The notes under the pieces: generated by a model
Seen by the model: the letters and a program-made list of their open reading frames with translations, nothing else
What the model was told of the DNA's origin: nothing
Databases searched by the model: none
Program-made: the position numbers and the translations under genes
Shown: positions 24,157-46,310 of the stretch, piece by piece
Numbering within the stretch: position 1 is the first letter of the stretch
How the letters are laid out: each line of letters begins with the position of its first letter
Source of the DNA: a virus
IMG/VR virus record: IMGVR_UViG_3300025083_002446
Location: 1 to 46,366 of that record
Length of the DNA stretch: 46,366 bases
Direction: 5' to 3' (one strand)

Positions 24157-25026
24157 ATGAGTAAAGGTATTATAATATTTGCTCAGAACAATGAGTACGT
24201 TGACTATGCTAAACAGGCTTGTGCTTGTGCTGGTTATGCCAGAAAGAATCTTTCATTGTTTGACGAGATATGTCTAATAACTAATACCGAGACTTTAAAA
24301 TCGAACGAAACACTAATTAACGAGTACTTTGATAAAGTAATTGTTAGTGATGAGTTTCAACCAGAAAACATACGATTGTTTAAAGATACCACACATATAA
24401 CTGAGTATGCATCATTTAAGAACATGGGCAGAAGTGAGGTATATGAGTTGTCTCCTTACGATGAAACACTTGTGATAGATAGTGATTATTTCATAATGAA
24501 TGATGTGCTAGACCAAGTATGGGATAGTGAAAACGATGTGATGATTAACTGTAAATACAGAGATGTTTCGGGACGTCATAAAGGGAACATAGAATATCTG
24601 GATAACTTTAGTATTCCAATGTATTGGGCAACAGTTTTTTATTTTAAGAAATCTGATTTTGCCGAAAATCTATTCACTCTTATAAGTCATATAAAATATA
24701 ATTACAAGTATTATTATTACCTATATAATTGTAGTGGCAATCTATATAGAAATGATTTTGCATTTTCTATGGCACTACATATATTGAACGGTAGTGTTGC
24801 GTTTGATGTGCCATCATTGCCATTTGATTATCTGAATAATAGTTTTGACCTTGATGATATTTACAGAGTCAACTCACATAATGATATTATTATGTATTGT
24901 GCTGATGCTGAAAGAATTACAAACCATATACTATCAAGGTTTAAAAACATAGACGTGCATATTATGAATAAGAAAGCAATAGCAAGATGTATTGATGACC
25001 TATTGACAAACGGAGAGAAAGTATGA
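24157..25026 (+). CDS. GT-A-like glycosyltransferase 1
   Basis: The 289-residue protein starts with a beta strand (KGIIIFAQN) and carries a D-x-D motif, Asp108-Ser-Asp110, in YDETLVIDSDYFI. This is the usual metal and nucleotide-sugar binding element of GT-A glycosyltransferases. A second segment, FYFKKSDFAENLFTLI, matches the position of acceptor-loop helices in such enzymes. It is clearly related to the next gene (same N-terminal KG-I-I/T-I-AQN and same PYDET-IDSD block). Its stop overlaps the next ATG (ATGA) after GGAGAAAGT. Sugar donor and acceptor cannot be told. It probably acts in the cytosol on the glycan or virion acceptor handled by this operon. Confidence 0.65.
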   Translation: MSKGIIIFAQNNEYVDYAKQACACAGYARKNLSLFDEICLITNTETLKSNETLINEYFDKVIVSDEFQPENIRLFKDTTHITEYASFKNMGRSEVYELSPYDETLVIDSDYFIMNDVLDQVWDSENDVMINCKYRDVSGRHKGNIEYLDNFSIPMYWATVFYFKKSDFAENLFTLISHIKYNYKYYYYLYNCSGNLYRNDFAFSMALHILNGSVAFDVPSLPFDYLNNSFDLDDIYRVNSHNDIIMYCADAERITNHILSRFKNIDVHIMNKKAIARCIDDLLTNGEKV

Positions 25027-25880
25027 GCAAAGGATATATAACTATTGCCCAGAATAGTGAAGACATTGATTACTTAGAAATGTCATATGCTCTCGCTCTC
25101 AGTTTAAAAGCAACACAAGAGAATAGCAATCTATGTGTATGTGTAGATGAAGAAACAAAGAAACTAATAACTGATAAACATAAGAAAGTATTTGATGCTA
25201 TAGTTGATATTCCTTGGAATGATGATGCTAAAGGAGACAAGTGGAAGATACACAATAAGTGGAAATATCCACATATGACTCCTTATGATGAAACTATCAT
25301 ACTTGATAGTGATATGATATTCACTGAGAGTGTAGACTATTGGTGGGAGTATCTTGTTAAGAAAGATGTTTGGTGTTGCACGAATGTTAAAACATTTCGC
25401 AATGAAGATGTAACAAGTGACTACTATCGAAAGAAGTTCACTCAATTAAATCTACCAAATGTGTATAGCAACTTCACGTACTTCAATAAATCAGAATTAA
25501 CTTTTGAATTCTTTAGAATGGTTGAGTTAATTATGACTCATTGGAATGTATACTTTGATAAGTTTCTTTCTGGTGTTGGACAGAATTGGATGAGTGCCGA
25601 CGTGGCATACGCATTAGCAATTCAACTATTAGATATTGAAGCAGAAACATGTGATTACGATATTAAAGATGTTCCTACTTTTGTTCATATGAAAAGTATG
25701 GTACAGAATGTACCAGTAACTATGATAGAGAGTAACTGGACTAAAAGTATAACAAGTGAGTTGGGAGATGATTTACAAGTAAAGATTGGTAATTTCACTC
25801 AAACATTGCCTGTACATTATGTAGAGAAGAATTGGATGGACGAGAATAAGATTAAACAACTCGAGGATGCAGTACTATGA
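25023..25880 (+). CDS. GT-A-like glycosyltransferase 2
   Basis: The 285-residue protein is a paralogue of the preceding gene. It has KGYITIAQN at the start, then KYPHMTPYDETIILDSDMIF with the D-x-D motif at Asp95-Ser-Asp97, and a Trp-rich C-terminal half (VGQNWMSADVAYALAIQ). The repeated PYDET-IDSD block in two adjacent genes shows tandem duplication followed by strong divergence. It has a good ribosome site (GGAGAAAGT) inside the end of the previous gene, and its own stop overlaps the next start by 4 nt. Donor and acceptor are unknown. Confidence 0.65.
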   Translation: MSKGYITIAQNSEDIDYLEMSYALALSLKATQENSNLCVCVDEETKKLITDKHKKVFDAIVDIPWNDDAKGDKWKIHNKWKYPHMTPYDETIILDSDMIFTESVDYWWEYLVKKDVWCCTNVKTFRNEDVTSDYYRKKFTQLNLPNVYSNFTYFNKSELTFEFFRMVELIMTHWNVYFDKFLSGVGQNWMSADVAYALAIQLLDIEAETCDYDIKDVPTFVHMKSMVQNVPVTMIESNWTKSITSELGDDLQVKIGNFTQTLPVHYVEKNWMDENKIKQLEDAVL

Positions 25881-29003: not shown

Positions 29004-30423
29004 AGAATATAAAAAGCGAGTCATTGACCCGATTAGTCCTTCGTTCTGTGCGGCGAAATGGCACAATGCAACTATCTGGTTAGGTCACGGACAGACTACT
29101 AGTTGTCATCAGCCACCAATGCATGATATTCCATTAGAAGAAGTAAAACATAATCATACTGCGATTCACAACACTAAGCACAAAAAAGCAATGCGTAAGT
29201 TAATGCTTAACGGTGAACGCCCGGCCGAGTGTGCAGTTTGTTGGAAAATGGAAGATTCTGGCAAGGATGTAGTATCAGTGCGAGTACAAAAAACGCAAAT
29301 GTCAGAAGAGAAAGACATAGCAAAAATACCAACTCAGGCTTGGGACAATGACTCAGCATTACATACATTAGAAATATCATTTGACAGAGCCTGTAATTTT
29401 AAATGTTCATATTGTAATCCTGCCTTCTCAACTGCATGGGTAAAAGATATTAATGACAACGGACCATATAAGAATATTCAGTCAGATACTAGAGGACACT
29501 TTGTTGGTACCGCACCATGGGCAGAAAAAGTAGCAAAAGATGATAAAGACAATCCATATATACAAGCATTTTGGAAGTGGTGGGAAGAGCCAGGCGGTCT
29601 AGTAGATACCCTATATGAAATACGAGTGACGGGCGGAGAACCTATTATGCATCCCGGAGTGTGGAAATTATTTGATTGGTTTAAAAATAATCCCACTAAA
29701 GGCCGTGATATGATATTTTCAATCAATAGTAACTTAGTTCCAGAGAAAGAAAAAACATTTGATAAGTTATTAGAAATTACACAATATGTTCCTAATTTTA
29801 AAATATATACTAGTTGTGAAGCAGTCGGAAAACAGGCAGATTATATTCGTGATGGAATGAAGTATGATACATGGTTGAGCAATATCTCTAGGTTATTAGA
29901 TAATCCTAAAGTTCGTGAATTTCATGTTATGATGACTATAAATTCTTTGTGTTTAGATGGAATAACAGACTTTATGGATGATATGTTAGCACTACGTAAG
30001 ATATACGGAGAACGTGCGCCTGTAATGTCATTGAATAGGTTGGACTTTCCAACATTTCAAAGTCCAGATATTTTGCCTGAGTATATGTTAACTCATTACC
30101 ATGACAAATTAGAAACATGGTATGAAAAGAATAAACATTTACTAATAGATGTAGAACATCTTCATGTTGGAAACTTATTGCATCACTTAACACGATGCAA
30201 GACACGATATCACAATCCTGAAGAACTAAAAAAACAATATAACGATTTTAAAACATTCTATACACAATATGACAAACGCAGAGGATTCGATTTCAGGTCA
30301 ACATTCGACCCTATGATGGTAGAGTGGTTTGATTCACTTGAAATACAACAGTCAACAGTGGCAGAAATAGGACCAGACCCTGCTACTATTGAAAAATATA
30401 ATGAGGACAACAAACATGGGTAG
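28987..30423 (+). CDS. N-terminal-twitch radical SAM protein 2
   Basis: With the start at 28987 the protein has 478 residues. The auxiliary-cluster cysteines are Cys21 (FCAAKW), Cys40 (TTSCHQPP), Cys82 and Cys85 (CAVCW). The radical SAM triad is Cys136, Cys140 and Cys143 (ACNFKCSYC), followed by IRVTGGEP. The N-terminal EYKKRVIDPIS and C-terminal TQYDKRRGFDFRSTF are nearly the same in protein 3, and the two genes are similar even at DNA level around the cysteine motif, so they are a fairly recent tandem duplication. The gene overlaps the end of protein 1 by 17 nt and the start of protein 3 by 8 nt. Substrate unknown; its neighbours suggest a carbohydrate or peptide modification. Confidence 0.88.
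   Translation: MDETFKEYKKRVIDPISPSFCAAKWHNATIWLGHGQTTSCHQPPMHDIPLEEVKHNHTAIHNTKHKKAMRKLMLNGERPAECAVCWKMEDSGKDVVSVRVQKTQMSEEKDIAKIPTQAWDNDSALHTLEISFDRACNFKCSYCNPAFSTAWVKDINDNGPYKNIQSDTRGHFVGTAPWAEKVAKDDKDNPYIQAFWKWWEEPGGLVDTLYEIRVTGGEPIMHPGVWKLFDWFKNNPTKGRDMIFSINSNLVPEKEKTFDKLLEITQYVPNFKIYTSCEAVGKQADYIRDGMKYDTWLSNISRLLDNPKVREFHVMMTINSLCLDGITDFMDDMLALRKIYGERAPVMSLNRLDFPTFQSPDILPEYMLTHYHDKLETWYEKNKHLLIDVEHLHVGNLLHHLTRCKTRYHNPEELKKQYNDFKTFYTQYDKRRGFDFRSTFDPMMVEWFDSLEIQQSTVAEIGPDPATIEKYNEDNKHG
30403..30407 (+). promoter_or_regulatory. Ribosome binding site GAGGA deciding the start at 30416
   Basis: GAGGA lies 8 nt before ATG 30416. A longer in-frame start at 30389 adds residues absent from radical SAM protein 2 and has no ribosome site. 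Confidence 0.55.
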
Positions 30424-31906
30424 AAAATACTGGGAGTTTGAAACACTCCACGAATACAAAAAACGAATTATTGACCCAGTTAGTAAGTCATATTGCGCCG
30501 CCAAGTGGTACAATGCTACTATCTGGTTAGGACATGGACAAACTACAAGTTGTCATCACCCACCAGGACATCCTATTCCGGTAGAATTATTAGACGACAA
30601 TCCATCAGCAATTCATAATACGCCACATAAGAAGAAAATGCGTAAGATGATGCAAGAGGGCGAACGTCCAGCAGAGTGTGAATACTGTTGGAAAGTTGAA
30701 GACATGGGCAAAGATAATATATCTGACCGTGTGTTTAAGACTGAAATCTATAAAGATGAAGATATTCAGAAATCAGTTGATTTGCCATGGGAAGAAAATG
30801 TTAATCTAAAGACACTTGAAATATCTTTTGATAGAGCGTGTAATTTTAAATGTTCATATTGTAATCCCGCATTCAGTACTGCCTGGGCAAAAGATATCAA
30901 TACGTATGGTCCATATCAGAATATTCAATCTGACGCAGTAGGACATTTTATTAATTCAGCCCCTTGGGTTGGCGCTATTGCTCCAGAAGATAATCCATAC
31001 ATTAAAGCATTTTGGAGATGGTGGGAAAGTGACCTTGCAGATAGTTTAGAAGAGATACGCATAACGGGTGGTGAACCTATTATGCATCCTGGTACTTGGA
31101 AATTATTTGATTGGTTTAAAAATAATCCAGGTCGAGGAAAAGATATGAGATTTGCCATCAATTCAAATATGTGTCCTGAAACTCCAAAGGTGTTGAACAA
31201 ACTGATTGAACAATCATGGCATGTGCCTAATCTTGAAATTTATACGAGCATGGAATCTACAGGCAAACAAGCAGAATATATTAGAGACGGACTTAATTAC
31301 GATGAATGGATGTCAAATATTCATCGTGTATTGAACGAAGCGAATATAACGAAACTGCATATGATGATGACTATAAACTCCTTGTGCCTAGATTCCATTG
31401 TTGAATTTTTAGATGAAATGTTAGACCTACGAGAACAATATGGACAACGAGCCCCAACGCTATCGCTGAATATTCTACGATTTCCTTCATTTCAGAGTAA
31501 TGCAATATTACCAGATGATATCAAAACTATTTACAAAGATAAGTTAGAGGCATGGTATAAGTCTGAACGCCCACAAAAAATGTTACACGATGGTGAGATG
31601 GCTAGTGTACAACGATTAATTGACTATCTTGATATCATTAAGACTCCTCATAGAAACACGGCAGATAAAGCAAAACTATATAATGATTTTAAGGCATTCT
31701 TTGCACAATACGATATTCGTAGAGGTAAAAGTTTCACAGAGACATTTCCAGGGCCGTTAGCAGACTGGTTCAATTCATTGTCTAGTGAAATTCCTACAGC
31801 AGAGAAAATATTAAGTAAAGAATTACAGTTAGAGGTATCTGATACTGCGATAGACCCGAAGACAACTGAAACTTATATTGACCAGACTGATGATGTATTG
31901 AAGTAG
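30416..31906 (+). CDS. N-terminal-twitch radical SAM protein 3
   Basis: The 496-residue protein is the close sister of radical SAM protein 2. Auxiliary cysteines are Cys27 (YCAAKW), Cys46 (TTSCHHPP), Cys88 and Cys91 (CEYCW). The radical SAM triad is Cys142, Cys146 and Cys149 (ACNFKCSYC), and the SAM-binding motif is IRITGGEP. It has a C-terminal extension of about 35 residues, rich in Asp, Glu and Thr, beyond QYDIRRGKSFTETF. Retention of every cluster ligand in both duplicates argues that both are active, perhaps on related substrates. The next gene follows after an 11-nt gap with a weak ribosome site. Confidence 0.88.
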   Translation: MGRKYWEFETLHEYKKRIIDPVSKSYCAAKWYNATIWLGHGQTTSCHHPPGHPIPVELLDDNPSAIHNTPHKKKMRKMMQEGERPAECEYCWKVEDMGKDNISDRVFKTEIYKDEDIQKSVDLPWEENVNLKTLEISFDRACNFKCSYCNPAFSTAWAKDINTYGPYQNIQSDAVGHFINSAPWVGAIAPEDNPYIKAFWRWWESDLADSLEEIRITGGEPIMHPGTWKLFDWFKNNPGRGKDMRFAINSNMCPETPKVLNKLIEQSWHVPNLEIYTSMESTGKQAEYIRDGLNYDEWMSNIHRVLNEANITKLHMMMTINSLCLDSIVEFLDEMLDLREQYGQRAPTLSLNILRFPSFQSNAILPDDIKTIYKDKLEAWYKSERPQKMLHDGEMASVQRLIDYLDIIKTPHRNTADKAKLYNDFKAFFAQYDIRRGKSFTETFPGPLADWFNSLSSEIPTAEKILSKELQLEVSDTAIDPKTTETYIDQTDDVLK

Positions 31907-31917
31907 TACGCTAGAAA

Positions 31918-33159
31918 ATGATAGACACAACTAAAATTATAGAAATTAAAACTGATGAAGACTATGCTAATTATTTGCTACGAGAGAATCAAGAAGCATA
32001 TAATAATAATATTGTCTTAATAGCAGATTTACGTCCTGATAAGAATATTATAATGTGTTCCTTAGATTTTGGCTTCGGAAGAAATAATGTGTCAATGTTA
32101 TCTGATTTTATAAAAGACCGATTTGATAACAACCATGGTCTACCAGATAAGATTTATATTACGTTCACGACTGAACCATATTTAAAGATGGGTCAAGAGA
32201 GAGTTCTTTCTAATGTTATAGAAACGGGATTTTATGTAGAAATTAATCCAGATGACGACCCAACTCCAAATGAAGATATTGAATGTGTATTTATTAATGG
32301 CGACCTTGGTGTTGAATCTAACGTTAAAAGATATTGTGGCGAAATTCCTGTTACAATCGGAAATGTAAAATTTTACGGATTCCCTTTTGGACTGCTATCA
32401 AGAACAAGAAAAAGACTAATATATGCACAAGATAGTAATAAAATAACAAATTACTACATGTGCCAATTTTACAGAGACATTCCAACTGGACATTTTTTAA
32501 AACATTTTGTATGTCTAAACGGAGTTCCAAATTTGATTAGGATAAAACTTCTAACTTGGTTACATGAAACAAATATTATTGAGAAGTGCCATTGGAGTTG
32601 GTTAAAACGCCACCCAGAAGGAACTGTTTTGTCAGACAACTGGAATAATATGATTTCAAAGACAGATGGTATTAACACTGCAATATTTGATTTTGAGCAA
32701 ACAAAAGAACTCGATATGTCATTAGAAGATTTAGAAATAGGACTAAATCAAGATAGAATAAGCCATTCTTATTATTTAAATAATAGTCTAATTGATATTG
32801 GAGTTGAAACTGTTCCGGAAAAATATCAGTTTTTTACTGAAAAAACATGGAAACCATATCTTGTTGGAAAAGTATCATTATTTTTTAACTGTCAAAGTTA
32901 TTATGCTATATTAAAAAATCTTGGATTCGAATTGTATGATGAAATATTTGATTATTCTTTCGACACAATAATAGATATAGATGAGAGACTGAGTGCATAT
33001 TTTAATGAAATAAAAAGAATAAGTGAAATCCCTCTCGAAGAGTTACAAACGAAGATATTAGGTATCGAAGATAAAATTTTAAGAAATAGAAACCATGCAT
33101 GGAATTGCGACATAACAACAATTTCACCTTTTAAGGAATATCCCACATTACTGCCATGA
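31918..33159 (+). CDS. Putative glycosyltransferase-like protein with C-terminal TEK motif
   Basis: The 413-residue protein is mostly unrecognised, but its C-terminal third has FFTEKTWKPYLVGKVSLFF (about residues 304-322), then LKNLGFELYDE and a YSFDTIIDIDERL segment. The pattern TEK-x-x-KP-x-x-x-G, hydrophobic strand, L-x-x-x-GF, acidic, D-x-R recurs in the genes at 35724 and 41499 of this window. It resembles the donor-binding C-terminal part of fucosyltransferase-like (GT-B) enzymes found in marine phages. The N-terminal half alternates beta strands and helices without a D-x-D motif. It sits between radical SAM genes 3 and 4, and its stop overlaps the next start by 4 nt. Function as a glycosyltransferase is a moderate inference. 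Confidence 0.45.
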   Translation: MIDTTKIIEIKTDEDYANYLLRENQEAYNNNIVLIADLRPDKNIIMCSLDFGFGRNNVSMLSDFIKDRFDNNHGLPDKIYITFTTEPYLKMGQERVLSNVIETGFYVEINPDDDPTPNEDIECVFINGDLGVESNVKRYCGEIPVTIGNVKFYGFPFGLLSRTRKRLIYAQDSNKITNYYMCQFYRDIPTGHFLKHFVCLNGVPNLIRIKLLTWLHETNIIEKCHWSWLKRHPEGTVLSDNWNNMISKTDGINTAIFDFEQTKELDMSLEDLEIGLNQDRISHSYYLNNSLIDIGVETVPEKYQFFTEKTWKPYLVGKVSLFFNCQSYYAILKNLGFELYDEIFDYSFDTIIDIDERLSAYFNEIKRISEIPLEELQTKILGIEDKILRNRNHAWNCDITTISPFKEYPTLLP

Positions 33160-34544
33160 AAAAAATAGTACCAATTTGGAATAGAGACGGCAGTTGTGCT
33201 GAAGAAAGTGAGAACAAGACTTTCTGTATGGCTCCGTGGTCGCACACTTACATATCTCCACAAGGTGAGAGAAGAATGTGTTGCGCCAGTAGAGAAGAAC
33301 ACTCATTTCAAAAACAGTATATTGATGCTACTAACGATGAGAAGTATGGCGAGATAAAAGAATCTAAAACATTAGCAGACGATTTTAATCCTGTTAGTTT
33401 AGAAGAACATTGGAACTCACCGTATATGAAAGACATTCGTAAGAAACTTATGGCAGGTGAACGTATATCACAATGTGATGTGTGTAACGATGACATCTTA
33501 AGTATATCATCATATCGTAAATGGTTCACAGGTGTTCTGTTTAGAGATAAGATACAAGAAGCGTTTGACAACACAGATGATGACGGACACACAACAATGC
33601 CTACTATTTCGTTTGACTATAGATATTCAAATCTATGTAACTTCAAATGTCGTATGTGTGGTGAACAGTTATCATCATCTTGGGAAGCAGAAAAGAAAAT
33701 CAATAACATGTGGAGTATAGAACAACAACCATTCATGCAGAAAGATGTTAAGAAGAAGATGACTACGTTTCAGACTGAAGTTGTTGAACCAGAATTTAGA
33801 GAAGCAATATCAAAAGGCATAGTTGAAGAAATATATTGGGTCGGTGGCGAACCGTTGATGTATGATATACATTGGTGGGCATTAGAAGAAATGGTCAATA
33901 ATGGTTCAGCAAAGAACTGCCATTTAAGATATAATTCTAATCTATCACGCACAGAATTCAAAGGTAAAAAACTTTTTGACTATCTGCCTCAGTTCAAAGA
34001 TTGGTTGATGTGTGCGAGTATCGATGGCACAGGTGACATTGTAGAATTTATTCGTAAGGGCATTGTATGGGAAGAATGGTTAGAAAACTTCAAAGAAGGT
34101 TTGGCCGCACCGGGCGGTAAAGACAAGATGTTGTTTGACTTAACGATTACTGGTCCAGGTATGTTTAGTATCAAAGACTTGTTTGATTTGAGTTTAGAAC
34201 TTGACGTGAGAATAGAAACAAAGATTATGTTTGCGTTTCATCCAGATATTATATTCTCACCCTTTGCATGGCCGAAACACATTCTTGCTAGAAAGATTGA
34301 CGAGTTACTTGAGTATATTGAGCCTCGAGCAACACAAAAACAATCAACACTAGTTAATACACTACGTGAGATGAGAAATAGACCCTCATTTGAAGAAGAA
34401 TATCCAGAACAATTTGTTCAAGGCAAGAAGAATGGCAAAGGATTCCAAGATAGACTAGATGAAATTCGAGATGAAAAAATTACAATCGCTGACATATACA
34501 AAGCAGACGATGAACTATATGAATGGTGGATGAACGATGAGTAG
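33156..34544 (+). CDS. N-terminal-twitch radical SAM protein 4
   Basis: The 462-residue protein has the same order of motifs as the other four but is clearly diverged. N-terminal cysteines are Cys24 (FCMAPW), Cys42 and Cys43 (MCC), and Cys107 and Cys110 (CDVC). The radical SAM triad is Cys161, Cys165 and Cys168 (CNFKCRMC), followed by YWVGGEP. FCMAPW with a CC pair after QGERRM is typical of SPASM/twitch-like cluster domains. The middle part reads DWLMCASIDGTG, the usual strand after the GGEP motif. It has no C-terminal QYD-x-RR motif, unlike proteins 1-3. Coupled to its neighbours by overlaps of 4 and 8 nt. Substrate unknown. Confidence 0.87.
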   Translation: MKKIVPIWNRDGSCAEESENKTFCMAPWSHTYISPQGERRMCCASREEHSFQKQYIDATNDEKYGEIKESKTLADDFNPVSLEEHWNSPYMKDIRKKLMAGERISQCDVCNDDILSISSYRKWFTGVLFRDKIQEAFDNTDDDGHTTMPTISFDYRYSNLCNFKCRMCGEQLSSSWEAEKKINNMWSIEQQPFMQKDVKKKMTTFQTEVVEPEFREAISKGIVEEIYWVGGEPLMYDIHWWALEEMVNNGSAKNCHLRYNSNLSRTEFKGKKLFDYLPQFKDWLMCASIDGTGDIVEFIRKGIVWEEWLENFKEGLAAPGGKDKMLFDLTITGPGMFSIKDLFDLSLELDVRIETKIMFAFHPDIIFSPFAWPKHILARKIDELLEYIEPRATQKQSTLVNTLREMRNRPSFEEEYPEQFVQGKKNGKGFQDRLDEIRDEKITIADIYKADDELYEWWMNDE

Positions 34545-35724
34545 TACTTTCTGTCCATTATTATTTCAACATCTTGCTACACATCCGCATGGCGGAGTAA
34601 CGCATTGTTGTGTTGCTGACCATCGTAATGCGTTGAGTAGTTCACGTGATGGTGATAGATTTTATAATCTAAATCGGGACACGGTACACGACACAATGAA
34701 TAGTGAGAGTTACAAGAAAGCAAGACTAGAAGTATTAGATGGTGAAAAACCAAAAGCCTGTTTACGTTGTTATGAAGAAGAAGATAAGGGCATGAACTCA
34801 AAACGCATAGAAGAAATTAGAAATTACCCAGAATACACTATAGACGTTGCGAGAGAGTCTACAGATAGCACAGGTTATATGAAAGATGTACAATTAGAAT
34901 TTGTAGAACTACGATTGGGCAATACTTGTAACGTTGCTTGTCGTACTTGTAATCCTGCTTCTAGTAGTAAATGGAGAAATGATTATGACGCATTACAGAA
35001 AGCAACTACATTTCAGTTGACAGATTATAACACGATGGAAGGTTTTAGATGGCCAGAACGAGAAGGTTTCTGGGAAGACTTGTTACAACATTGTGACCGG
35101 GTGAAGACATTTTATATTAATGGTGGCGAACCAATGTTAATTAAAGAACACTTTGCATTCTTAGAACGACTTGTTGAATTAGGCAAAACTGATATCAAGT
35201 TGTGGTATAATATTAATATGACATTGATGAATGAGAAAGTTATAGACTTGTGGCGCAAGTTTGACCATGTAAAAATAAGTTGTAGTATAGATGACTTAGG
35301 AATACGAAACGAGTATATCAGACATCCAACGAACTGGGACACTGTAATGAAAAACTTTTTAAGATTAAAAGAAGAAGATTTTGAAATCGATATTACTCAG
35401 ACTGTTTCGTTTATGAACTATTCAACTCTTGGAGATTTTTATAATTTCTTCTACAAAGAACATGGTACTTATGTATATCATAACATGGTATATGACCCTA
35501 TTATATTATCTCCGGCTGTGTTGCCCAAAAAGATGAGAGATGACATTCACAAGACATTTGAAAACGTATTCGAGGATTGGAGATTTGAGCAACTACTAAG
35601 TATGTTCAGTAATGAAACAAATGAAAAAAACTGGAATGACGCAATAGAATATACGAACAAATTAGATAATATACGAAATCAAGACATCGGCGATTATTTG
35701 CCAGAATTTAAGGAGATTATGTAA
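34537..35724 (+). CDS. N-terminal-twitch radical SAM protein 5
   Basis: At 395 residues this is the shortest of the five. Auxiliary cysteines are Cys6 (TFCPLLF), Cys24 and Cys25 (HCC), and Cys75 and Cys78 (CLRC). The radical SAM triad is Cys131, Cys135 and Cys138 (CNVACRTC), followed by FYINGGEP. The segment KISCSIDDLGIRNEYIRH after it is typical of SPASM-type radical SAM enzymes acting on peptides or sugars. It begins inside the end of protein 4, and its stop overlaps the next ATG by one base after AAGGAGATTATGTA. It is as distant from protein 4 as from proteins 1-3, so the array holds at least three sub-lineages. Confidence 0.87.
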   Translation: MSSTFCPLLFQHLATHPHGGVTHCCVADHRNALSSSRDGDRFYNLNRDTVHDTMNSESYKKARLEVLDGEKPKACLRCYEEEDKGMNSKRIEEIRNYPEYTIDVARESTDSTGYMKDVQLEFVELRLGNTCNVACRTCNPASSSKWRNDYDALQKATTFQLTDYNTMEGFRWPEREGFWEDLLQHCDRVKTFYINGGEPMLIKEHFAFLERLVELGKTDIKLWYNINMTLMNEKVIDLWRKFDHVKISCSIDDLGIRNEYIRHPTNWDTVMKNFLRLKEEDFEIDITQTVSFMNYSTLGDFYNFFYKEHGTYVYHNMVYDPIILSPAVLPKKMRDDIHKTFENVFEDWRFEQLLSMFSNETNEKNWNDAIEYTNKLDNIRNQDIGDYLPEFKEIM

Positions 35725-37901
35725 TGCAAACATTATTTGACCCGTTACATGTAGAGACTCATAAACTAAAGACATCAGTAAAAAATTTAAATAAAACAAT
35801 AACTATTTTGTCAGAAAGTCCAGATTATAAATATCAAACTTATAGTAATATAATTTTAAATATAAATCCCAATAAAAGATATGACCATTATTATATTATT
35901 AATACTGATATGACGTTCTATGATGAAAATAATAATTACTATAGTGATTATAATGATGAAGAAATAAATTACACAGATAAAATATCCATCGTAATCGACC
36001 GTGTACTTGCAGATGACACTATAATGTCACGCATTAAGTCAGGTAAAGCCATGTTACTATTTGATTTTAGTGTAGAAGATTGTCCTATATCAATAGATGA
36101 TTCAACCATATATGGAAAAATAAATAAATATTTCAGCAAAATAAACACTCATAACAATGTAGTATATTGGACGATGAATGAAAGTGTTTATGATAAAATT
36201 GACAAGAAAGATTGTAATGTTAGAATTGAATGCGTTTCATTGAGTACCCTGCGATATGTTAGATTCAATTATAATGATTACAACAAATTAATATACAGCA
36301 ACCAAAACGGACTGGGACGCAAATCAGCATTGTATTTGAACAGGAGACCTAGAGAACATAGAATAATACTATTGGCAGAATGTGTCAAACGAGGGGTAGA
36401 TATTGATAATATGTACCTTTCATTTATCGGTAATTCACTTTCTGATTATGATAAGAAAAACGATGCTGAAATTATTAAAAATACAATAGATATTCATTAC
36501 GGAGATGCATACCCAACTCATATAGGAAAAGGCATATCACCTTTCTTATTTGAACAATTAACTCCACATATGGGCAAACACATAGAAATACGCACAAGCG
36601 AGGATGATGGAAAAATAAGATTAGGAGACAAAGTTGATGGTGATGTAATATCACGAGTAACCGATATGTTACCTCATAGATTAAAATCAAAATTTGAAAT
36701 CATTACAGAATATACATATACTGATTCTGATATTTCAATAAGTGAAAAATTATCATTAGCAATGTTAAGTAAAATTCCATTTGTTGTTCTTGGTGATAGA
36801 CATTATTTGCGCCATTTAAAGAAACTAGGATTTAAAACATTTGACAAGTTCTGGTCTGAGGCATATGACCATAAAAATAAAGACGACAGAATAAGTGTGC
36901 TTGCCTCAACAATAAATGATATAGTTAATTTTTTTCATTGTAACACCGATGAATATGGCAATAGTGTATACTCTAAAGAAATGAATGAAATATTAGAACA
37001 TAACTATGGTCACTATAAAGATGTATATGCTCCTACTATTATTGACAGAGTTTTAAATACGTTATCGACAAATGAAAAGGACACAGATATGATAAACAAT
37101 GAAGAAGAAAACATAACAGAGTACGCATTAACGTTGAATAAACAAATGGCAAATCATTTTGATAACTTCAAACAAAATTATCCAGAAATAGCACAATGCA
37201 AAGAATTAATGGGATTCCATGGTGATGGATTCGAAGAGTCAATGAAAAAGGGGTTCTGGCAAAATCATACAAGAATGTTAGAAGCATTGGGATTATCAAA
37301 GAACGGATTCAGGTCTAAGTCAAATCCTGCTATATTAGATTTGGGGACACAATTTGGAATGTTCCCTCATTTCTTAAATTCTATAGGACTAACTGATGTA
37401 AGTTATACTAATTCGGTAGAGGAGGCATCTAGTGATATAGGAGATTTAAAACTTATTTGGGACAAAATAGGGACTTCCAACGCAGAAGGAACTCAAATGC
37501 CAATTCCATTGCACATTAAAACAGGAAAAAGTTTCAGTTTGCCTAAAAAGTATGACTTAATCATATGTACTACGTCAAACGTATTGTGGCAAACTGAGAC
37601 AGTTCTACGATTTCACAGTCGTACTTTAGGATTTTCATATTATGTAACGGATAAAAATGATGAATCTCATACATTTTTTGCACCATATGATGTTGATGAC
37701 CTTAGATTTTTCATTGAGAATATAAAAGAATACTTAAATGACGACGGAATTGCACTAATACAGCCTTATCCTTTTCCTTATCATGTAGGCGCATTCAAAG
37801 AAGAATTGGAATTATTAAAAGCATATCAATCACCAGAAGACGGATACATTGGACCGCCAGGCGAAGATAATCTATTTGATTACTTTGTAATTAGGAAGTA
37901 A
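35724..37901 (+). CDS. Two-domain protein: TEK-like glycosyltransferase part fused to a SAM methyltransferase
   Basis: The 725-residue protein has two parts. Residues about 1-430 include, near 338-385, SEKLSLAMLSKIPFVVLG, LKKLGFKTFDKFW and EAYDHKNKDDR. This is the motif series also found in the genes at 31918 and 41499, and it points to a GT-B-like donor-binding domain. Residues about 450-725 contain AILDLGTQFGMFPHFL near 535, a variant of methyltransferase motif I, then KYDLIICTTSNVLW and a DDGIALIQPYPF strand, as in class I SAM-dependent methyltransferases. A linker of acidic residues (NNEEENITEY) separates them. A fused transferase that adds and caps a sugar by methylation is a reasonable inference. 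The methyl acceptor is unknown. Confidence 0.55.
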   Translation: MQTLFDPLHVETHKLKTSVKNLNKTITILSESPDYKYQTYSNIILNINPNKRYDHYYIINTDMTFYDENNNYYSDYNDEEINYTDKISIVIDRVLADDTIMSRIKSGKAMLLFDFSVEDCPISIDDSTIYGKINKYFSKINTHNNVVYWTMNESVYDKIDKKDCNVRIECVSLSTLRYVRFNYNDYNKLIYSNQNGLGRKSALYLNRRPREHRIILLAECVKRGVDIDNMYLSFIGNSLSDYDKKNDAEIIKNTIDIHYGDAYPTHIGKGISPFLFEQLTPHMGKHIEIRTSEDDGKIRLGDKVDGDVISRVTDMLPHRLKSKFEIITEYTYTDSDISISEKLSLAMLSKIPFVVLGDRHYLRHLKKLGFKTFDKFWSEAYDHKNKDDRISVLASTINDIVNFFHCNTDEYGNSVYSKEMNEILEHNYGHYKDVYAPTIIDRVLNTLSTNEKDTDMINNEEENITEYALTLNKQMANHFDNFKQNYPEIAQCKELMGFHGDGFEESMKKGFWQNHTRMLEALGLSKNGFRSKSNPAILDLGTQFGMFPHFLNSIGLTDVSYTNSVEEASSDIGDLKLIWDKIGTSNAEGTQMPIPLHIKTGKSFSLPKKYDLIICTTSNVLWQTETVLRFHSRTLGFSYYVTDKNDESHTFFAPYDVDDLRFFIENIKEYLNDDGIALIQPYPFPYHVGAFKEELELLKAYQSPEDGYIGPPGEDNLFDYFVIRK

Positions 37902-37902
37902 T

Positions 37903-38811
37903 ATGAAATATTACATAGCAGGCAATAGAGGATTAGTAGGAACACACTACAGCAATGTAGTTAGTAATTCTCTGGGCGGGAACACAGACTTAGTTGACTA
38001 CAGTGACCCGACTAGTACAAACGAAGAATTCAAAAGACTAGAGAAAACATATGGATTGCCTACACATGTAATTATCAATGCGGCTACAGTTGGTGGTCTA
38101 CAAGAAGATTTAGATTTTTCGTATGAACTGATGATAAAGAATTTAACTATTCAGAATAATATATTCAATGTATGTTCTGAGTTTGGAATAGATAGAGTGC
38201 TACTACAAGGAAGTACTTGTAGTTATCCTGCCGAAGGAAGTCAACCGTATACTGAAGACCAATTGATGAATGGCGAACCCCACAAAACATATTTGCCAAC
38301 AGCAATGCCAAAATTAATGGGCATGTATCAATGTAGAGCAAAGAATGAAAAAGCAGGAACACATTGGCGCACTGCGATAAACTCTAATATGTTTGGACCA
38401 AATGATAGAACAGGAGAACACGCACATGTAATTGGTGCGTTGATGCAAAAGTTTGTTACAGCAGTCAAAGAAGACTGGACTGAGATTGAGATATGGGGTA
38501 GTGGAAATCAAAGTAGAGATTTGATTTATATCAAAGATGCCATAAGTGCAATGGATATAATTCTAAACAACAATAAATATGATACAGTTAACGTTGCGAG
38601 TGGAGTTGAAACTTCTATTAGAACATTAGCAGAAACATTAAAAACAATAAGCGGATTTACAGGCAGATTGTGGTATAACACTGATAGGCCAGAAGGAATT
38701 AAAAACAGAGCCATTGATAATTCAAAGTTAAAAGAACTAGGATGGACACCAAAATACACATTAGAAGAAGCACTAACAGAAACATACGGATGGTATTATG
38801 ATAGACATTAA
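37903..38811 (+). CDS. GDP-L-fucose synthase-like short-chain dehydrogenase with altered active site
   Basis: The 302-residue protein is an extended SDR most like GDP-L-fucose synthase. It has G7-x-x-G10-x-x-G13 (GNRGLVG) for NADP, NAATVGG, the family's GSTCSYP with Cys106, FGPNDRTGEHAHVI with His175, and SRDLIYIKDA. The Cys and His used for epimerisation in that family are therefore kept. However, the catalytic Y-x-x-x-K is replaced: alignment with the usual PYAIAK segment puts Thr133 in the Tyr place (TAMPK, Lys137 kept), the nearest Tyr being Tyr130. It may be an epimerase without normal reductase activity, or it may use Tyr130. The gene starts one base after the previous stop, and the next gene starts inside its 3' end. 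Confidence 0.75.
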   Translation: MKYYIAGNRGLVGTHYSNVVSNSLGGNTDLVDYSDPTSTNEEFKRLEKTYGLPTHVIINAATVGGLQEDLDFSYELMIKNLTIQNNIFNVCSEFGIDRVLLQGSTCSYPAEGSQPYTEDQLMNGEPHKTYLPTAMPKLMGMYQCRAKNEKAGTHWRTAINSNMFGPNDRTGEHAHVIGALMQKFVTAVKEDWTEIEIWGSGNQSRDLIYIKDAISAMDIILNNNKYDTVNVASGVETSIRTLAETLKTISGFTGRLWYNTDRPEGIKNRAIDNSKLKELGWTPKYTLEEALTETYGWYYDRH

Positions 38812-39559
38812 CAATATTAAATATAAAAGAATATTCTGTTTCGGATGCAGTTTTACTAATTATCATAAAATGCCCACATGGGCTGATATTCTAAAATTAC
38901 ATTTTGAAAATACAAGCACTGTAGTACACAATGAAGGTAAACCCGGTGTAGGCAACTATTATATATTTAATAAAATAGTTCAAACGGGTTTAAGATACAA
39001 TTTTACTAAAGATGATTTAATTCTAATACAATGGAGTGGTGTTTTTAGAGAAGATAGATTTAAAGATGGGCAGTGGATTACACCAGGAAATATATTGACT
39101 CAATCTGTATATTCTACCTCTGTTGTTAATAAATGGTTTTTTGATGAAGAGGGAATGCTGATGCGTGATTGCTCTTATATTCATGTAATAAAAAAGATGT
39201 TAGAATGCGATGATTTGAATTATGAAATGTTCAGTATGAATGGAATTCAGGCAATCGACCAATATTATGAGCCTAGTATAGAAAACGCTAGTCTTCAAAC
39301 ATTCAAGGAGAATAGGTTCATCGGTTTAACATCTCTATACCAAGACACGTTAAAAAAAATAAATCCAAGTATGTATGATATAGTACTTGGAGAAAATGCA
39401 GGTGTAGGAGAGGGTGTTAGATTAAAAGGCGATAAGCATCCCGACTATCATTTTCTGCCAACTCAACATTTGTTATATTTAGAAAAAGTCTTTCAATTCA
39501 AACCATCTGATGAATTGAGAACACGAGTAGAGAAAATTACAAAGGAATTATTACCATGA
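38798..39559 (+). CDS. SGNH/GDSL-type hydrolase-like protein
   Basis: The 253-residue protein begins with IFCFGCSFTNY, in which Ser18 of GCSFT takes the place of the GDSL nucleophile. Then come an EGKPGVGN block (the Gly/Asn region), LILIQWSG, and near the C-terminus GDKHPDYHFLPTQHLLYLE, which supplies the Asp/His part. The order fits SGNH hydrolases, which act as esterases or as de-/transacetylases on carbohydrates. There is no signal peptide, so cytosolic action on an intermediate or acceptor is likely. It overlaps the previous gene by 14 nt and the following aminotransferase gene by 4 nt (ATGA). Substrate unknown; an O-acyl group on a sugar would fit the setting. Confidence 0.6.
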   Translation: MIDINNIKYKRIFCFGCSFTNYHKMPTWADILKLHFENTSTVVHNEGKPGVGNYYIFNKIVQTGLRYNFTKDDLILIQWSGVFREDRFKDGQWITPGNILTQSVYSTSVVNKWFFDEEGMLMRDCSYIHVIKKMLECDDLNYEMFSMNGIQAIDQYYEPSIENASLQTFKENRFIGLTSLYQDTLKKINPSMYDIVLGENAGVGEGVRLKGDKHPDYHFLPTQHLLYLEKVFQFKPSDELRTRVEKITKELLP

Positions 39560-40641: not shown

Positions 40642-41502
40642 TATACCAGAGTCAAGTGTTTCTGTTGCTACAAATCCCGTACGTTCTTTTATTTTAGAAT
40701 AATCAACAAAGTAATTTCTTCCATCTTTGTCGTGTTCTAGTGTTGTATTCACTTCAAGTTCATAGTCAACATATTTTTGAATAGTTGTTGCTATGTCTAA
40801 CTTTGTATGATTAAGAGTTTCATCACCAACGTTCCAGACTTCACCTTTCATATCATCATACTTCTCTATTCCGAGAGCAAAGCCTCGAACTAAATCGTTA
40901 ATACTTAGGAATGTTCTTTTGAAATGACCTTCAAACAATACGAGTTTGCCTACATTAATTGCTTGATTAACAAAGTCATTGACGAGCAAATCATTTCGTA
41001 ATCTATTACTGACACCAAATGCAGTTGCTGGTCTAAAGATAACTGCGTTATCTCCTGAGTATTCTTCTCCTATCAATTTGTATTCACTATACTTACTGAT
41101 TGGATTTGTTTCTGAGCCTTCTGTGCAAATGCTATTAAGGGCACCATAGACACTACCTGTACTCGCATATACAAATGGCTTATCGCCAGTGGCATCAATA
41201 ACTCGTTTCGTTGCTTCAACATTGATAGAGTGTGCTAGTATTGGCTCGGCATCACACGCTGGATAACCAACAATACCTGCTAGATGAATAACCGCATCTG
41301 CTGATTTGATTACAGACTCAACTTCTTTGTTCCTAATGTCCATGACATGAAGATGAAAGTTAGGATGGTCTATGATATTCAATATCGGCGTAACTCCCCA
41401 TCGCATCCAATCTATACATATTACTTCGTGACCTTGTTTTAGAAAGTATTCACTAAGTCTACATCCAACATATCCTGCCCCACCTGTTATTGCTATTTTC
41501 AT
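40588..41502 (-). CDS. NAD-dependent nucleotide-sugar epimerase/dehydratase
   Basis: The 304-residue extended SDR has G7-x-x-G10-x-x-G13 (GGAGYVG), a DWMRWG segment after strand 2, HLAGIVGYPA, a YASTGSVYG strand with the active-site Ser/Thr, and Y-x-x-x-K in YSEYKL. RPATAFG and RTFLSINDLVRG complete the pattern of UDP/dTDP-sugar epimerases and dehydratases. The dinucleotide site and catalytic residues are intact, unlike the fucose-synthase-like gene at 37903. It is the last gene of the minus-strand operon. Its start overlaps the stop of the previous gene (ATGA), and its last 17 codons are antisense to the DegT gene. Exact sugar unknown. Confidence 0.85.
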   Translation of the reverse strand: MKIAITGGAGYVGCRLSEYFLKQGHEVICIDWMRWGVTPILNIIDHPNFHLHVMDIRNKEVESVIKSADAVIHLAGIVGYPACDAEPILAHSINVEATKRVIDATGDKPFVYASTGSVYGALNSICTEGSETNPISKYSEYKLIGEEYSGDNAVIFRPATAFGVSNRLRNDLLVNDFVNQAINVGKLVLFEGHFKRTFLSINDLVRGFALGIEKYDDMKGEVWNVGDETLNHTKLDIATTIQKYVDYELEVNTTLEHDKDGRNYFVDYSKIKERTGFVATETLDSGILNLVTLYKASSHNITYR

Positions 41503-42599
41503 ATTTTTTCTACCTGGTTACATATCCAAACAGCACGTTCATACTTAGTTTCGCTTTTAATCTGTTCGTATACTTTTTGATTGTGTATTCTTGCTTCCTT
41601 TGTATCTTTATAAATCTTTTTTATATAATTCTTATTATCACCAATTTCTTTAATAAGTTCAAATATGGTTTCTAATCTTGCATCATCAGGTAATCCATTA
41701 TCGTATTCGGATAAGTAATCTTGTAATTCGAATCCATACTTTCTTAGATATCCTGCTGTATTTGGAGAATTAAACCATATAAAAAATCTACCAGTGCTTA
41801 ATGGTTTTGCAGTTTTTTCTGTAGTAAAGTGCATACTTCCACGTACATGTTGGCTTTCGCATACAATATCAAAGTGTGTGTTATTGTATATCGTCTCGGG
41901 CACTACGTGTGATAAAATATAAGGTCTGTTTTCTTGAATTACAGGTATCATAGTGTCTAACTTTCCTATTGAATAACTAGCACCTAAATCTTGCTGAGTC
42001 AAATGGTATAATGTGCCGGCATCTTCTAGATGGGTATCTGAATCATTTTTATACTGACTATGACCCATATATGTTGAGTACACATATGAATGGGGTCGAA
42101 CCGCTTCAAACATTTTTGTTCTGTATTCTCGTTCAGAACCCAATAACATATTAAATGTAAAGTCTTTTTGTCTATAATCAAAGTCTATTGTTGTATCTTG
42201 GGACGTGTATATAGACCTATCAGCAAACCATGGCATATTAAAAGTTCTAGATAGGTCAAGAGGGTAATTGCTATCTTCTGACGATGCTATATAAAATACA
42301 TTAAGTTTATCAACTTCTGTCATAAATTCTTGTAGTAATTTTTTACGTTCGCCAGTTGCCTGCTGTTCTGTCATCTCTATCAATTCTGATATTACAAAAA
42401 AACAAATATCATATTTTTCTATTTCTATTAATAAATTATCTAATTGTAATTTACATAAATGAACTCTATGTTCAATATCATACCAAGAAGAGTCAAAATA
42501 TAACCATCTCTCCCAGTTAAAAATAAGAATCTTTTCTGAAGATTTTTCATATTTTTTTAATAAGTCGCTTTCATAGTTGTTGAATACTTGACGAATCAT
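41499..42599 (-). CDS. Putative glycosyltransferase-like protein with C-terminal TEK motif
   Basis: The 366-residue protein is not recognised over its N-terminal 240 residues, which alternate strands and helices (KILIFNWERWLYF, YDICFFVISEL). Near residues 255-305 it has MHFTTEKTAKPLSTGRFF, then LRKYGFELQDYL and EYDNGLPDDARLETIFELI. The same ordered motif occurs in the genes at 31918 and 35724 on the other strand. The motif resembles the donor-binding end of fucosyltransferase-like enzymes. It sits between a sugar C-methyltransferase and an epimerase, with one base and a 4-nt overlap as spacings, so a role as the transferase for the sugar made by this operon is plausible. Confidence 0.45.
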   Translation of the reverse strand: MIRQVFNNYESDLLKKYEKSSEKILIFNWERWLYFDSSWYDIEHRVHLCKLQLDNLLIEIEKYDICFFVISELIEMTEQQATGERKKLLQEFMTEVDKLNVFYIASSEDSNYPLDLSRTFNMPWFADRSIYTSQDTTIDFDYRQKDFTFNMLLGSEREYRTKMFEAVRPHSYVYSTYMGHSQYKNDSDTHLEDAGTLYHLTQQDLGASYSIGKLDTMIPVIQENRPYILSHVVPETIYNNTHFDIVCESQHVRGSMHFTTEKTAKPLSTGRFFIWFNSPNTAGYLRKYGFELQDYLSEYDNGLPDDARLETIFELIKEIGDNKNYIKKIYKDTKEARIHNQKVYEQIKSETKYERAVWICNQVEKI

Positions 42600-44222: not shown

Positions 44223-44229
44223 ATATAAA

Positions 44230-44253
44230 AAAGCCCTCGATTAAGAGGGCTTT
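44230..44253 (-). terminator. Rho-independent terminator after the lipoprotein gene
   Basis: AAAGCCCTC and GAGGGCTTT form a 9-bp perfect stem around the 6-nt loop GATTAA. On the minus strand the stem leads directly into a run of six T. It lies 20 nt after the stop of the FG-GAP lipoprotein gene and just before the late motif of the cupin operon, so it separates the two minus-strand units. Confidence 0.9.
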
Positions 44254-44273
44254 AATTTAACAGTTAGAAACTA

Positions 44274-45842
44274 TTACTTAACTATCATTGCATCAAGTTC
44301 TGCTTCTAGTTCGGCTTCAAACGCCGCTAGTTCATCTTCTACAGATTGTGCTTCATCAGTTAGTTGATTAGTACGTTTTTTATAACTGAATTTTATTTTA
44401 CTATCAGTTCTATCAGTAATAAACTTATGTGAATCAGCGGGTCTTATTAAGTCAAATACAAACGAACCTTGGTTAATCAGTATTGAACCATTACTTTGTT
44501 TGTGTTCGCCTGTTAAAAAGACATCCATGTCTCCGTCATTATCAACATCTGTGAATATTATTGAGTTAATAAAAGAATTCCATTCATTAGCCTCAGATTT
44601 CTTTGCATCGGCAACAGCATTATCAGGTGCTATCAGTAATTCAATCAAGCCGTGGTCTTTAAACTTCTTATTACCTAAGTTTTCTATGATTTGTATAGCC
44701 GTACCTACATAGTATTCACCGACTCGACTAATAACAATATCTAAGTCGCCATCGTTGTCTAGGTCCGATGCAGATATCTCTGGTATTTCGCTATATTTCT
44801 TTTTATAGTATTGTACTTTGGTTTTTCTAGAAAAGTTGCCTTTACCATCATTCCAAACAATGCCAGTTAAACCTGGGATTGCATTATTGCCATATTCTAG
44901 TTCATGACCGCCGACCAGTGCATCTAAGTCTCCATCGCCATCCATATCAGCAAGTTCTAGACCAAAGGCAAAAACACCTCCACACTTACGTTTCTTTAAG
45001 TATCCAGTACCGTCATTCATTAAACACCAGAATGCTGTTTTGTTCTGCCAAGTGTGCATCTCAGTGATAACTATATCCATATCACCATCGTTATCAATAT
45101 CGCCAGTAGCCGCGCCATGGTCCCATACTCGAAAATTTGGGTGACTAAGATGAGTGTCCGATGACTCTAGCCAAGTACCGTCTGGCTGACTAAGAAAATA
45201 ACTATCAACTTGACCATCCAAGCCTGCTACTCCAGTGTCTGCAAAATAGAAATCTAAAACACCATCGTTGTTGTAATCAGCATTGTGAATTTGATTAGGT
45301 GCCTCAAGACCAGGAATATCACGATTATCAACCAACAACCAAGACGAGTATGTCAAGTTCCCATCAGCATCACCTAAGAATAATGCTGGCTCTCGAAATA
45401 TGCCGATACAGTCATTATTATTAGGACACCAATCTCTTCCACCAGCCTCCATCGGATTATTCATACCGTCAATCATATTGCTCGGTTTAATAACGCCTAT
45501 GTAAATTACATCATTATATCCGTCATTATTAAAATCCGCTATTCTCCATTGACGCCCATACCAAAAGTTTCTATCAACTGGTTGAGGAGCCCTTGGCGGT
45601 TTGAAAAAATCGATATTGGGGTCATTTTCAATATCAATTCCAGCAAGTGCCTTGGTTACTTTTTGTGATGAAGTATTACTAGTTGTTGTGTTTGAGCCGC
45701 CACAGTTGTAAACAAAATAAGTGCCATCTGCGGAAATACTCTTTACTGGTTTACTACCATCAAGACATCCTCCTGCTTTGGTAACACCCGAGCATCCTAA
45801 CATTAATACTGCTAAAAATAACAGTGATACTATATTTTTCAT
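44274..45842 (-). CDS. FG-GAP/VCBS beta-propeller lipoprotein
   Basis: The 522-residue protein begins with a lipoprotein signal peptide: basic MKN, a hydrophobic core, and the lipobox LMLGC with Cys17 as the lipidation site and Ser at +2, compatible with outer-membrane sorting in Gram-negatives. At least six calcium-binding loops of the FG-GAP/VCBS kind follow between residues about 100 and 450: DFNNDGYNDV, DYNNDGVLDF, DIDNDGDMDI, DMDGDGDLDA, DLDNDGDLDI and DVDNDGDMDV. They are regularly spaced, as expected for propeller blades. The last 30 residues are Glu/Ala-rich and probably a helix. The gene follows a small unknown gene by 34 nt and ends at a terminator. A ribosome site (AGAGG) precedes the ATG. 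An envelope role such as receptor masking or exclusion is inferred. Confidence 0.88.
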   Translation of the reverse strand: MKNIVSLLFLAVLMLGCSGVTKAGGCLDGSKPVKSISADGTYFVYNCGGSNTTTSNTSSQKVTKALAGIDIENDPNIDFFKPPRAPQPVDRNFWYGRQWRIADFNNDGYNDVIYIGVIKPSNMIDGMNNPMEAGGRDWCPNNNDCIGIFREPALFLGDADGNLTYSSWLLVDNRDIPGLEAPNQIHNADYNNDGVLDFYFADTGVAGLDGQVDSYFLSQPDGTWLESSDTHLSHPNFRVWDHGAATGDIDNDGDMDIVITEMHTWQNKTAFWCLMNDGTGYLKKRKCGGVFAFGLELADMDGDGDLDALVGGHELEYGNNAIPGLTGIVWNDGKGNFSRKTKVQYYKKKYSEIPEISASDLDNDGDLDIVISRVGEYYVGTAIQIIENLGNKKFKDHGLIELLIAPDNAVADAKKSEANEWNSFINSIIFTDVDNDGDMDVFLTGEHKQSNGSILINQGSFVFDLIRPADSHKFITDRTDSKIKFSYKKRTNQLTDEAQSVEDELAAFEAELEAELDAMIVK

Positions 45843-45876
45843 TTTTTCCTCTCTTTTTATGTTATACTTTACTAAA

Positions 45877-46227
45877 TTAATCTAAACGTGAACCCGTAGT
45901 TAACTTAATTCCACTACCTAGTTCATTCATCTTTGAAACATATGCTTCTGCACCTGCTTCTTTGACATCAATGTTCTGTGTAGAATAACCCGATGGATTC
46001 CATATCTGATAAGTCTTACCAGTCCAGTCTTTCTCAAAGCCAATACTCTCAAGTATCGCTCTCTCTTCTTTACCTAGACGTGTATTGCCTTTATTCACTG
46101 GATGAGCAGTCACCCAAGCAAATCCACACATACCAAATCGGTCACCCCATTTGTCATCTTCTGCTTTGGCCGCTTTTTGAGCCGCAAAAACACTCTCTTC
46201 GTGATATTTCTGAAACATTGTAGCCAT
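45877..46227 (-). CDS. Conserved phage hypothetical protein
   Basis: The 116-residue protein looks like a small family found in many phages: FGMCGFAWV near residue 32, a mid-protein GFEKDWTGKTYQIWNPSG, and a C-terminal KEAGAEAYVSK ending in SRLD. The function is not known to me. There is no signal peptide or membrane segment; one Cys lies in GMCGF. It is first in a two-gene unit with the lipoprotein gene, behind a consensus sigma70-type promoter and a strong ribosome site (AGAGGAGT), so strong early expression is likely. Confidence 0.75.
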   Translation of the reverse strand: MATMFQKYHEESVFAAQKAAKAEDDKWGDRFGMCGFAWVTAHPVNKGNTRLGKEERAILESIGFEKDWTGKTYQIWNPSGYSTQNIDVKEAGAEAYVSKMNELGSGIKLTTGSRLD

Positions 46228-46253
46228 AATTTACTCCTCTTTTTTTATTATCT

Positions 46254-46263
46254 ATACTAGTAT
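46254..46263. promoter_or_regulatory. 10-nt palindrome ATACTAGTAT at the promoter start region
   Basis: This perfect palindrome overlaps the last two bases of the minus-strand -10 box and covers the expected transcription start. It sits in the same position as the palindromes at 7299-7306 and 23744-23757, though its centre is CTAG rather than GTAC. Confidence 0.4.
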
Positions 46264-46289
46264 TATACCACAAAACCGTATTTTGTCAA
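46262..46289 (-). promoter_or_regulatory. Consensus sigma70-type promoter for the minus-strand early unit
   Basis: On the minus strand, TTGACA (46284-46289), a 16-nt spacer and TATAAT (46262-46267) form a full consensus promoter 34 nt before the ATG at 46227. It would drive the small conserved gene and the lipoprotein gene as far as the terminator at 44230-44253. Confidence 0.8.
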
Positions 46290-46310
46290 GTTTTTGCCGT
46301 TTTTTATATA

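Follow-up and report, generated by a model that had tools for sequence, protein, structure and literature searches.

The sequence analysed here, referred to throughout as the window, is an entire IMG/VR record of 46,366 bases, close to the right end of which a two-gene unit is located on the (-) strand, with little sequence readable 5' of its promoter. The first gene of the unit (45877..46227 (-)) encodes a 116-aa protein (phrog_22149), while the second (44274..45842 (-)) encodes a 522-aa FG-GAP beta-propeller protein of the exported type, which constitutes the cargo of the cassette described below. The unit is preceded by a sigma-70 promoter that matches the consensus at 12/12 positions (46262..46289 (-); TTGACA-16-TATAAT, with TG preceding the -10 element) and is followed by an intrinsic terminator with a 9-bp stem and a T-run (44230..44253 (-)). 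The original prediction, which had described a two-gene unit with a full-consensus promoter and a strong terminator, is therefore borne out, as are the coordinates of both reading frames.

Fold and N-terminus of the 522-aa protein

The strict motif D-x-[DN]-x-D-[GA]-x-x-D occurs six times in the 522-aa protein, at residues 103, 189, 248, 299, 360 and 432, and Pfam analysis returned FG-GAP_3 (E=9e-26, in six stretches) and FG-GAP (1e-12), placing the protein among the FG-GAP/integrin-like propellers (PF13517, PF01839) with 90.6 bits against a cut-off of 26.9. An AlphaFold model, obtained with a 30-row alignment of relatives and the sequence cut to the propeller, reached a pLDDT of 81 and a pTM of 0.82 (an earlier run with 15 close sequences was poor, at pLDDT 57). 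In this model a six-bladed propeller with six D-x-D-x-D-G loops spans about residues 95-468 (44439..45560 (-)), the six four-stranded blades, at about residues 95-466, being our own grouping of the strand list of the model. Both the six blades of the model and the six Asp loops, which are conserved in relatives, identify a propeller fold, and the earlier claim of a beta-propeller with at least six DxDxDG blades was thus upheld. The Asp loops are of the metal-binding type and would be expected to bind calcium. An acidic C-terminal helix (about residues 484-521; 44280..44393 (-)) is shared with the host copies of the Thioglobaceae. Sequence matches to AMP kinase were dismissed as chance, being weak, short and gone in a deeper profile.

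The nearest solved folds are those of CRTAC1, integrin alpha chains, aldos-2-ulose dehydratase and Bap1, the best fold and profile matches being CRTAC1 (Foldseek E=1e-9, TM 0.55) and integrin alpha-V (sequence profile E=4e-8); the sequence profile finds integrin alpha, CRTAC1 and Bap1. These matches represent a fold relation at 9-16% identity (about 10-16% for integrin alpha and CRTAC1), which does not imply the same function. Integrin alpha and CRTAC1 are animal proteins, unlike the phage protein of the window, and integrin propellers have seven blades. The biofilm matrix adhesins Bap1 and RbmC resemble the window protein in possessing a beta-propeller with DxDxDG-type loops; the match to Bap1 is weak (hmmsearch E=3e-5; Foldseek E=2.6e-5). 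Bap1 possesses eight blades, as opposed to six in the window model, as well as extra domains, and its propeller binds exopolysaccharide (PMC10102183).

The protein starts with a signal sequence (residues 1-17, MKNIVSLLFLAVLMLGC; 45792..45842 (-)) that ends at Cys17 of the lipobox M-L-G-C (residues 14-17). The best lipobox sites carry L, V or I at position -3, and MLGC, which fits a relaxed pattern, is acceptable. Serine is present at +2 after the lipobox Cys, which under the Lol +2 rule, derived from enterobacteria, is of the outer-membrane type. Residues 26-47 (45702..45767 (-)) constitute a Thioglobaceae-specific two-Cys module, CLDGSKPVKSISADGTYFVYNC. In the module-bearing phage contigs the lipobox Cys is located 9-12 residues upstream of this module (MLGC in the window, the canonical LVGC in G001 and TSAC in G358). 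A lipobox is thus present in 3/3 module-bearing phage proteins versus 0/37 different host signal sequences (Fisher p=1e-4), a comparison that was made post hoc, after the sequences were seen, and in which the 3/3 amounts to about two independent events, as the signals of the window and G001 are related (both GC[ST]GVTKA). In G358 a homologue of the 116-aa protein (59% identity) is found 1.9 kb from the module gene, which is lyase-like and is also preceded by a perfect sigma-70 promoter.

Copies of the gene at the same position in other phage contigs (see below) carry either a lipobox (LWGC in G367, LTAC in G373) or a plain Cys-less signal peptide (G375 and G377/G378), while the copy of G361 is cut. 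Because of the Cys-less signal peptides, lipid anchoring is not a rule of this position. Furthermore, the phage proteins retain the Ala of the presumed signal peptidase I site of the host (TKA-GG), so that secretion without a lipid anchor would be possible. The lipoprotein claim of the original prediction therefore stands as regards an exported protein with the lipobox motif MLGC, whereas lipidation itself is something that we infer, given that the signal peptidase I site is also kept; judged by its N-terminus, the 522-aa protein is likely to be lipid-anchored in the envelope. That the module Cys might be the lipobox Cys in the hosts is disfavoured by the presence of K, R, N, D or F at -1/-2 in some of them and by a near-invariant Ala at -3.

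Relationship of the cargo to Thioglobaceae genes

Close relatives of the 522-aa protein (53-57% identity) among 84,980 bacterial and archaeal species genomes are all gammaproteobacterial and mostly belong to SUP05/Thioglobus genomes, and a copy with 62% identity is present in host genome G030. The Thioglobaceae FG-GAP proteins that carry the module (CPDGSEPVKS..DGTYFVYNC) resemble the window protein in propeller (53-62%), two-Cys module, linker and acidic helix, but differ from it in the absence of the upstream lipobox and in that a perfect promoter was found in none of the nine Thioglobaceae loci scanned. The host relatives are flanked by ordinary-looking chromosomal genes, with no phage genes among them, the function of these neighbours having been read from sequence rather than by searches.

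The module, C-x-DGSEPVKS-x-S-x-DGTYFVY-x-C, heads many unrelated host bodies, among them FG-GAP propellers, Alginate_lyase and GH5 cellulase. Within Thioglobaceae, 18 of 83 genomes contain it, with 45 occurrences in total and up to eight module genes in a single host genome; among 274 gammaproteobacterial genomes sampled, it was detected only in one Thioglobaceae genome, the seed of the sample. As the module is specific to the Thioglobaceae, the cargo gene of the window very probably derives from the SUP05/Thioglobus family and the window phage very probably infects Thioglobaceae. Slot cargo predicts the same host for the phages of G001, G367 and G361, which, like that of the window, are without isolates. 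In G002, G006 and G030 (L017, L114, L116, L118) the module is present in numerous secreted proteins whose bodies are unrelated and which frequently form tandem arrays, and it has the appearance of an undescribed module for export or display that is specific to the SUP05/Thioglobus family.

The phage copies are nested in the host gene tree, which marks the cargo as a host-derived accessory gene. The window copy groups with host copy L116a (98/96), that of G361 with another group of host paralogues (100/100), and those of G375 and G378 with alphaproteobacterial genes (96/95), on long branches. One acquisition event for all the phages was rejected (AU p=0.0009 for one phage clade and p=5.5e-37 for a clade of window and G361), while a clade of window and G001 alone gave an AU p of only 0.035; the GVTKA shared by their signals suggests that the window and G001 have a common 5' end and differing bodies.

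A fixed slot with exchanged content

The window encodes a contractile-tail baseplate module (baseplate wedge, hub/lysozyme and a ClpP-like protease), a 3,014-aa ORF, a series of radical-SAM-like ORFs and nucleotide-sugar genes. Because its large baseplate protein is 34-35% identical to counterparts in phages of 337-378 kb (GAP32, RaK2 and CBB) and because a contig of 342,607 bp is among its relatives, the window most likely represents part of a jumbo myovirus genome. It belongs to an uncultured marine jumbo-phage clade, the members of which are probably lytic jumbo phages and not prophages. The protease, of the ClpP-like head-maturation type (6672-7262 (-)), is situated on the opposite strand within the baseplate operon and is 91% identical in G001; since it is present in more than 590 IMG/VR stretches, relatives of the window phage are very abundant.

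A conserved gene of the clade (25023..25880 (+)) served as an anchor for locating the corresponding slot in other contigs. This gene is present in 25 IMG/VR contigs, one of which, L162, equals G001. Seven of these contigs extend at least 18 kb past the anchor and in each of the seven an FG-GAP gene is located 14-23 kb from it, the distance in the window being 18.4 kb; shorter contigs were not counted either way, with L170, L172 and L180 stopping at 15.5-17.3 kb. With the window included, the slot is filled in 8/8 contigs that reach it, about seven of which are independent (G377 and G378 are near-copies). The notion that the propeller is an unusual one-off in a phage consequently had to be abandoned, as the slot is filled across the clade. 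The FG-GAP gene in the slot invariably runs opposite to the anchor gene, its products are of the exported type but come from different host-type families, all members with intact 5' ends possess signal peptides, and no copy has a disrupted reading frame or Asp loop. In G001, G367, G375, G377 and G378 the gene is internal to the contig with phage genes on both sides, on which grounds host contamination was rejected. No matching between tail fibres and cargo was found.

The promoter of the unit is the sole perfect site in the 46 kb of the window, where shuffling leads one to expect 0.2 and yielded at least one perfect site in 18 of 100 shuffles; taken alone, this single site is weak evidence, and its uniqueness in the window and G001 partly reflects short contigs. 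The evidence gains strength because a perfect or one-off site is present at the same position in relatives with an intact 5' end, namely a perfect promoter in four of six independent slots and one mismatch in the other two. A scan of the clade set for perfect matches to TTGACA-N16-19-TATAAT returned 42 sites in 1.2 Mb, i.e. one per 28.5 kb, and the four perfect slot promoters lie no more than approximately 100 bp upstream of the unit (chance P about 1e-10). The T4 late promoter TATAAATA was rarer than chance in a motif scan. There is thus good evidence that the unit is transcribed by host sigma-70 RNA polymerase, and since such transcription usually means early expression in large lytic phages, the unit would be expected to be expressed early.

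In a comparison of the window with G361, most genes are 80-96% identical (92-96% adjoining the slot) and the FG-GAP proteins 28% identical, each being about 57% identical to a different host paralogue; both paralogue types adjoin in contig C48 of host genome G030. The 3' edge of the cassette, comprising the terminator and the last codons (44225..44306 (-)), has 93% DNA identity to G361, and upstream of it the gene bodies of the two are unrelated at the DNA level, while the 5' edge (46225..46307 (-)) matches, at 74% in DNA, the promoter region immediately preceding the FG-GAP gene of jumbo phage G378. G361 starts inside its FG-GAP gene, and chimerism is to be considered there; in G001, G367 and G373, where both edges are inside the contig, the pattern is similar, with downstream neighbours at 85-98% and cargo at 34-54% identity. 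These data show a cassette with cargo of host origin, the body of which has been replaced repeatedly.

The unit had been described in the original prediction as a moron-type cassette, and like lambdoid morons it is an autonomous promoter-gene-terminator unit among phage genes. That it behaves as an exchangeable cassette is shown by the DNA breakpoints and by the replacement of the gene body between near-identical phages. However, a classic moron is found in some related phages and lacking from others at an otherwise contiguous site, whereas this slot was filled in 8/8 contigs that reach it and differs in content, and its carriers are probably lytic jumbo phages.

Of the window genes that vary relative to G361, the cargo stands out most but is not alone: the 116-aa gene and two other window genes are missing from G361. 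Positions 31918-33159 and 35724-37901 are also poorly conserved (35% and 43%), and 38798-39559 and 41499-42599 are among further genes that differ sharply or are absent. The radical-SAM/sugar region seems to be a second variable zone. At 27429-35724 at least five radical-SAM-like ORFs (PHROG 1802/14086/13987) lie in tandem, some of them duplicates of one another; this run, which adjoins the nucleotide-sugar genes and is kept across the jumbo-phage clade, is unusual in a phage.

Possible role of the cassette

The reading that we favour, tentatively and with somewhat less than an even chance of being correct, is that the cargo acts as an early, envelope-anchored host mimic that alters the surface of the infected cell, most likely excluding competing phages. 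The promoter-cargo-terminator cassette at its fixed position in the genomes of the clade would be transcribed by host RNA polymerase from the consensus promoter, probably early, and would supply an exported FG-GAP propeller of six blades that was acquired from the host, in this case from a member of the SUP05/Thioglobus family. In the window version, which keeps the two-Cys module of the host and has a lipobox in front of it, the protein would become attached to the infected cell's envelope, where a propeller resembling the surface or secreted propellers of the host could occupy the same envelope or glycan partners and so change the cell surface; receptor masking or altered adhesion would be plausible. 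Such a surface would most likely keep competing phages out, and close phages would exchange versions because the useful version would be set by the local host surface or competitor set. Exclusion of competing phages would, in our estimation, best explain why close phages differ just at the slot. It is also possible, albeit rather doubtful, that the locus of the clade displays a copy of the surface propeller of the current host, swapped by cassette recombination at the conserved promoter and terminator; if true, this would represent a host-matched surface-disguise or exclusion system, analogous in phages to antigen cassette switching.

The phage surface lipoproteins known to date are for the most part small exclusion factors of coliphages. 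The parallel with T5 Llp that had been drawn for this locus holds as an analogy of lifestyle, as the window protein, like Llp/Cor, is a (predicted) phage-encoded exported lipoprotein from a small unit of its own. In sequence and structure the two differ: T5 Llp is small and periplasmic and jams the FhuA plug (PMC9586334), whereas the window protein is a host-derived six-bladed propeller of 522 aa that need not jam a plug and that has no PHROG family match at E 0.01, and a sequence relation is not claimed, although the protein might still work in a comparable manner.

Since the cargo comes from several families of host paralogues, which lie side by side in one host contig (both types in C48 of G030), host genomes carry numerous module genes and phage G358 has a lyase-like module protein instead, the phage propeller might alternatively be a decoy or dominant-negative that disturbs the exported propeller/glycan system of the host, for example an infection-blocking or virion-trapping assembly. 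We regard this as unlikely, as an antiphage role of these host proteins is not known and the mechanism is unspecified. The proposal that the propeller is an auxiliary gene for nutrition or particle attachment, allowing the infected cell to capture glycans or to stick, is similarly improbable, given that Thioglobaceae are mainly sulfur oxidisers, that a gain inside one lytic cycle is doubtful and that swapping between near-identical phages would be left unexplained. It does draw on the Pfam Alginate_lyase and GH5 cellulase bodies of host module proteins and on the likeness of the fold to Bap1, with its exopolysaccharide-binding propeller (PMC10102183).

A structural or tail protein of the virion is a highly improbable identity for a gene product that has a signal peptide in every slot member with an intact 5' end and whose gene has a dedicated promoter and terminator and runs counter to the baseplate and tail-fibre genes, even though these genes are about 20 kb away and BFVD gives distant propeller-like matches in phage structural proteins. 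That the window stops just past the unit and G361 starts within the gene might indicate host DNA misassembled onto a phage contig, or a functionless passenger gene; with the gene between phage genes in G001, G367, G375, G377 and G378, one of these contigs being 342,607 bp long, and with frames and Asp loops intact in all copies, this too is very unlikely. In a widespread marine jumbo-phage clade, then, one fixed genome position has so far always been occupied, with repeated exchange, by genes for large exported proteins of host origin under host-type promoters, and exclusion or surface change in infected major ocean sulfur oxidisers becomes testable gene by gene.

The 522-aa protein has no match in PHROGs or in the INPHARED phage collection, nor do its relatives L003 and L085 in INPHARED, and FG-GAP lipoproteins in phages were not found reported in the literature searched, while VCBS-type proteins are annotated in uncultured phages. 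What is new here is a phage cargo cassette whose slot has been occupied in every case so far, by host propellers that are swapped. A different phage contig (L003, IMGVR_UViG_3300025695_001236, 228-1568) encodes an FG-GAP lipoprotein that is distantly related and has an FTAC lipobox, which suggests that FG-GAP lipoproteins may have been recruited independently in that phage. On contig IMGVR_UViG_3300025108_004223 (L085), a gene at 2702-4105, directly following a perfect sigma-70 promoter, combines the Thioglobaceae module and a lipobox with a body that is 24-25% identical to host lyase-like module proteins, and an exported DegP-like protease and a nuclease-like ORF are encoded nearby.
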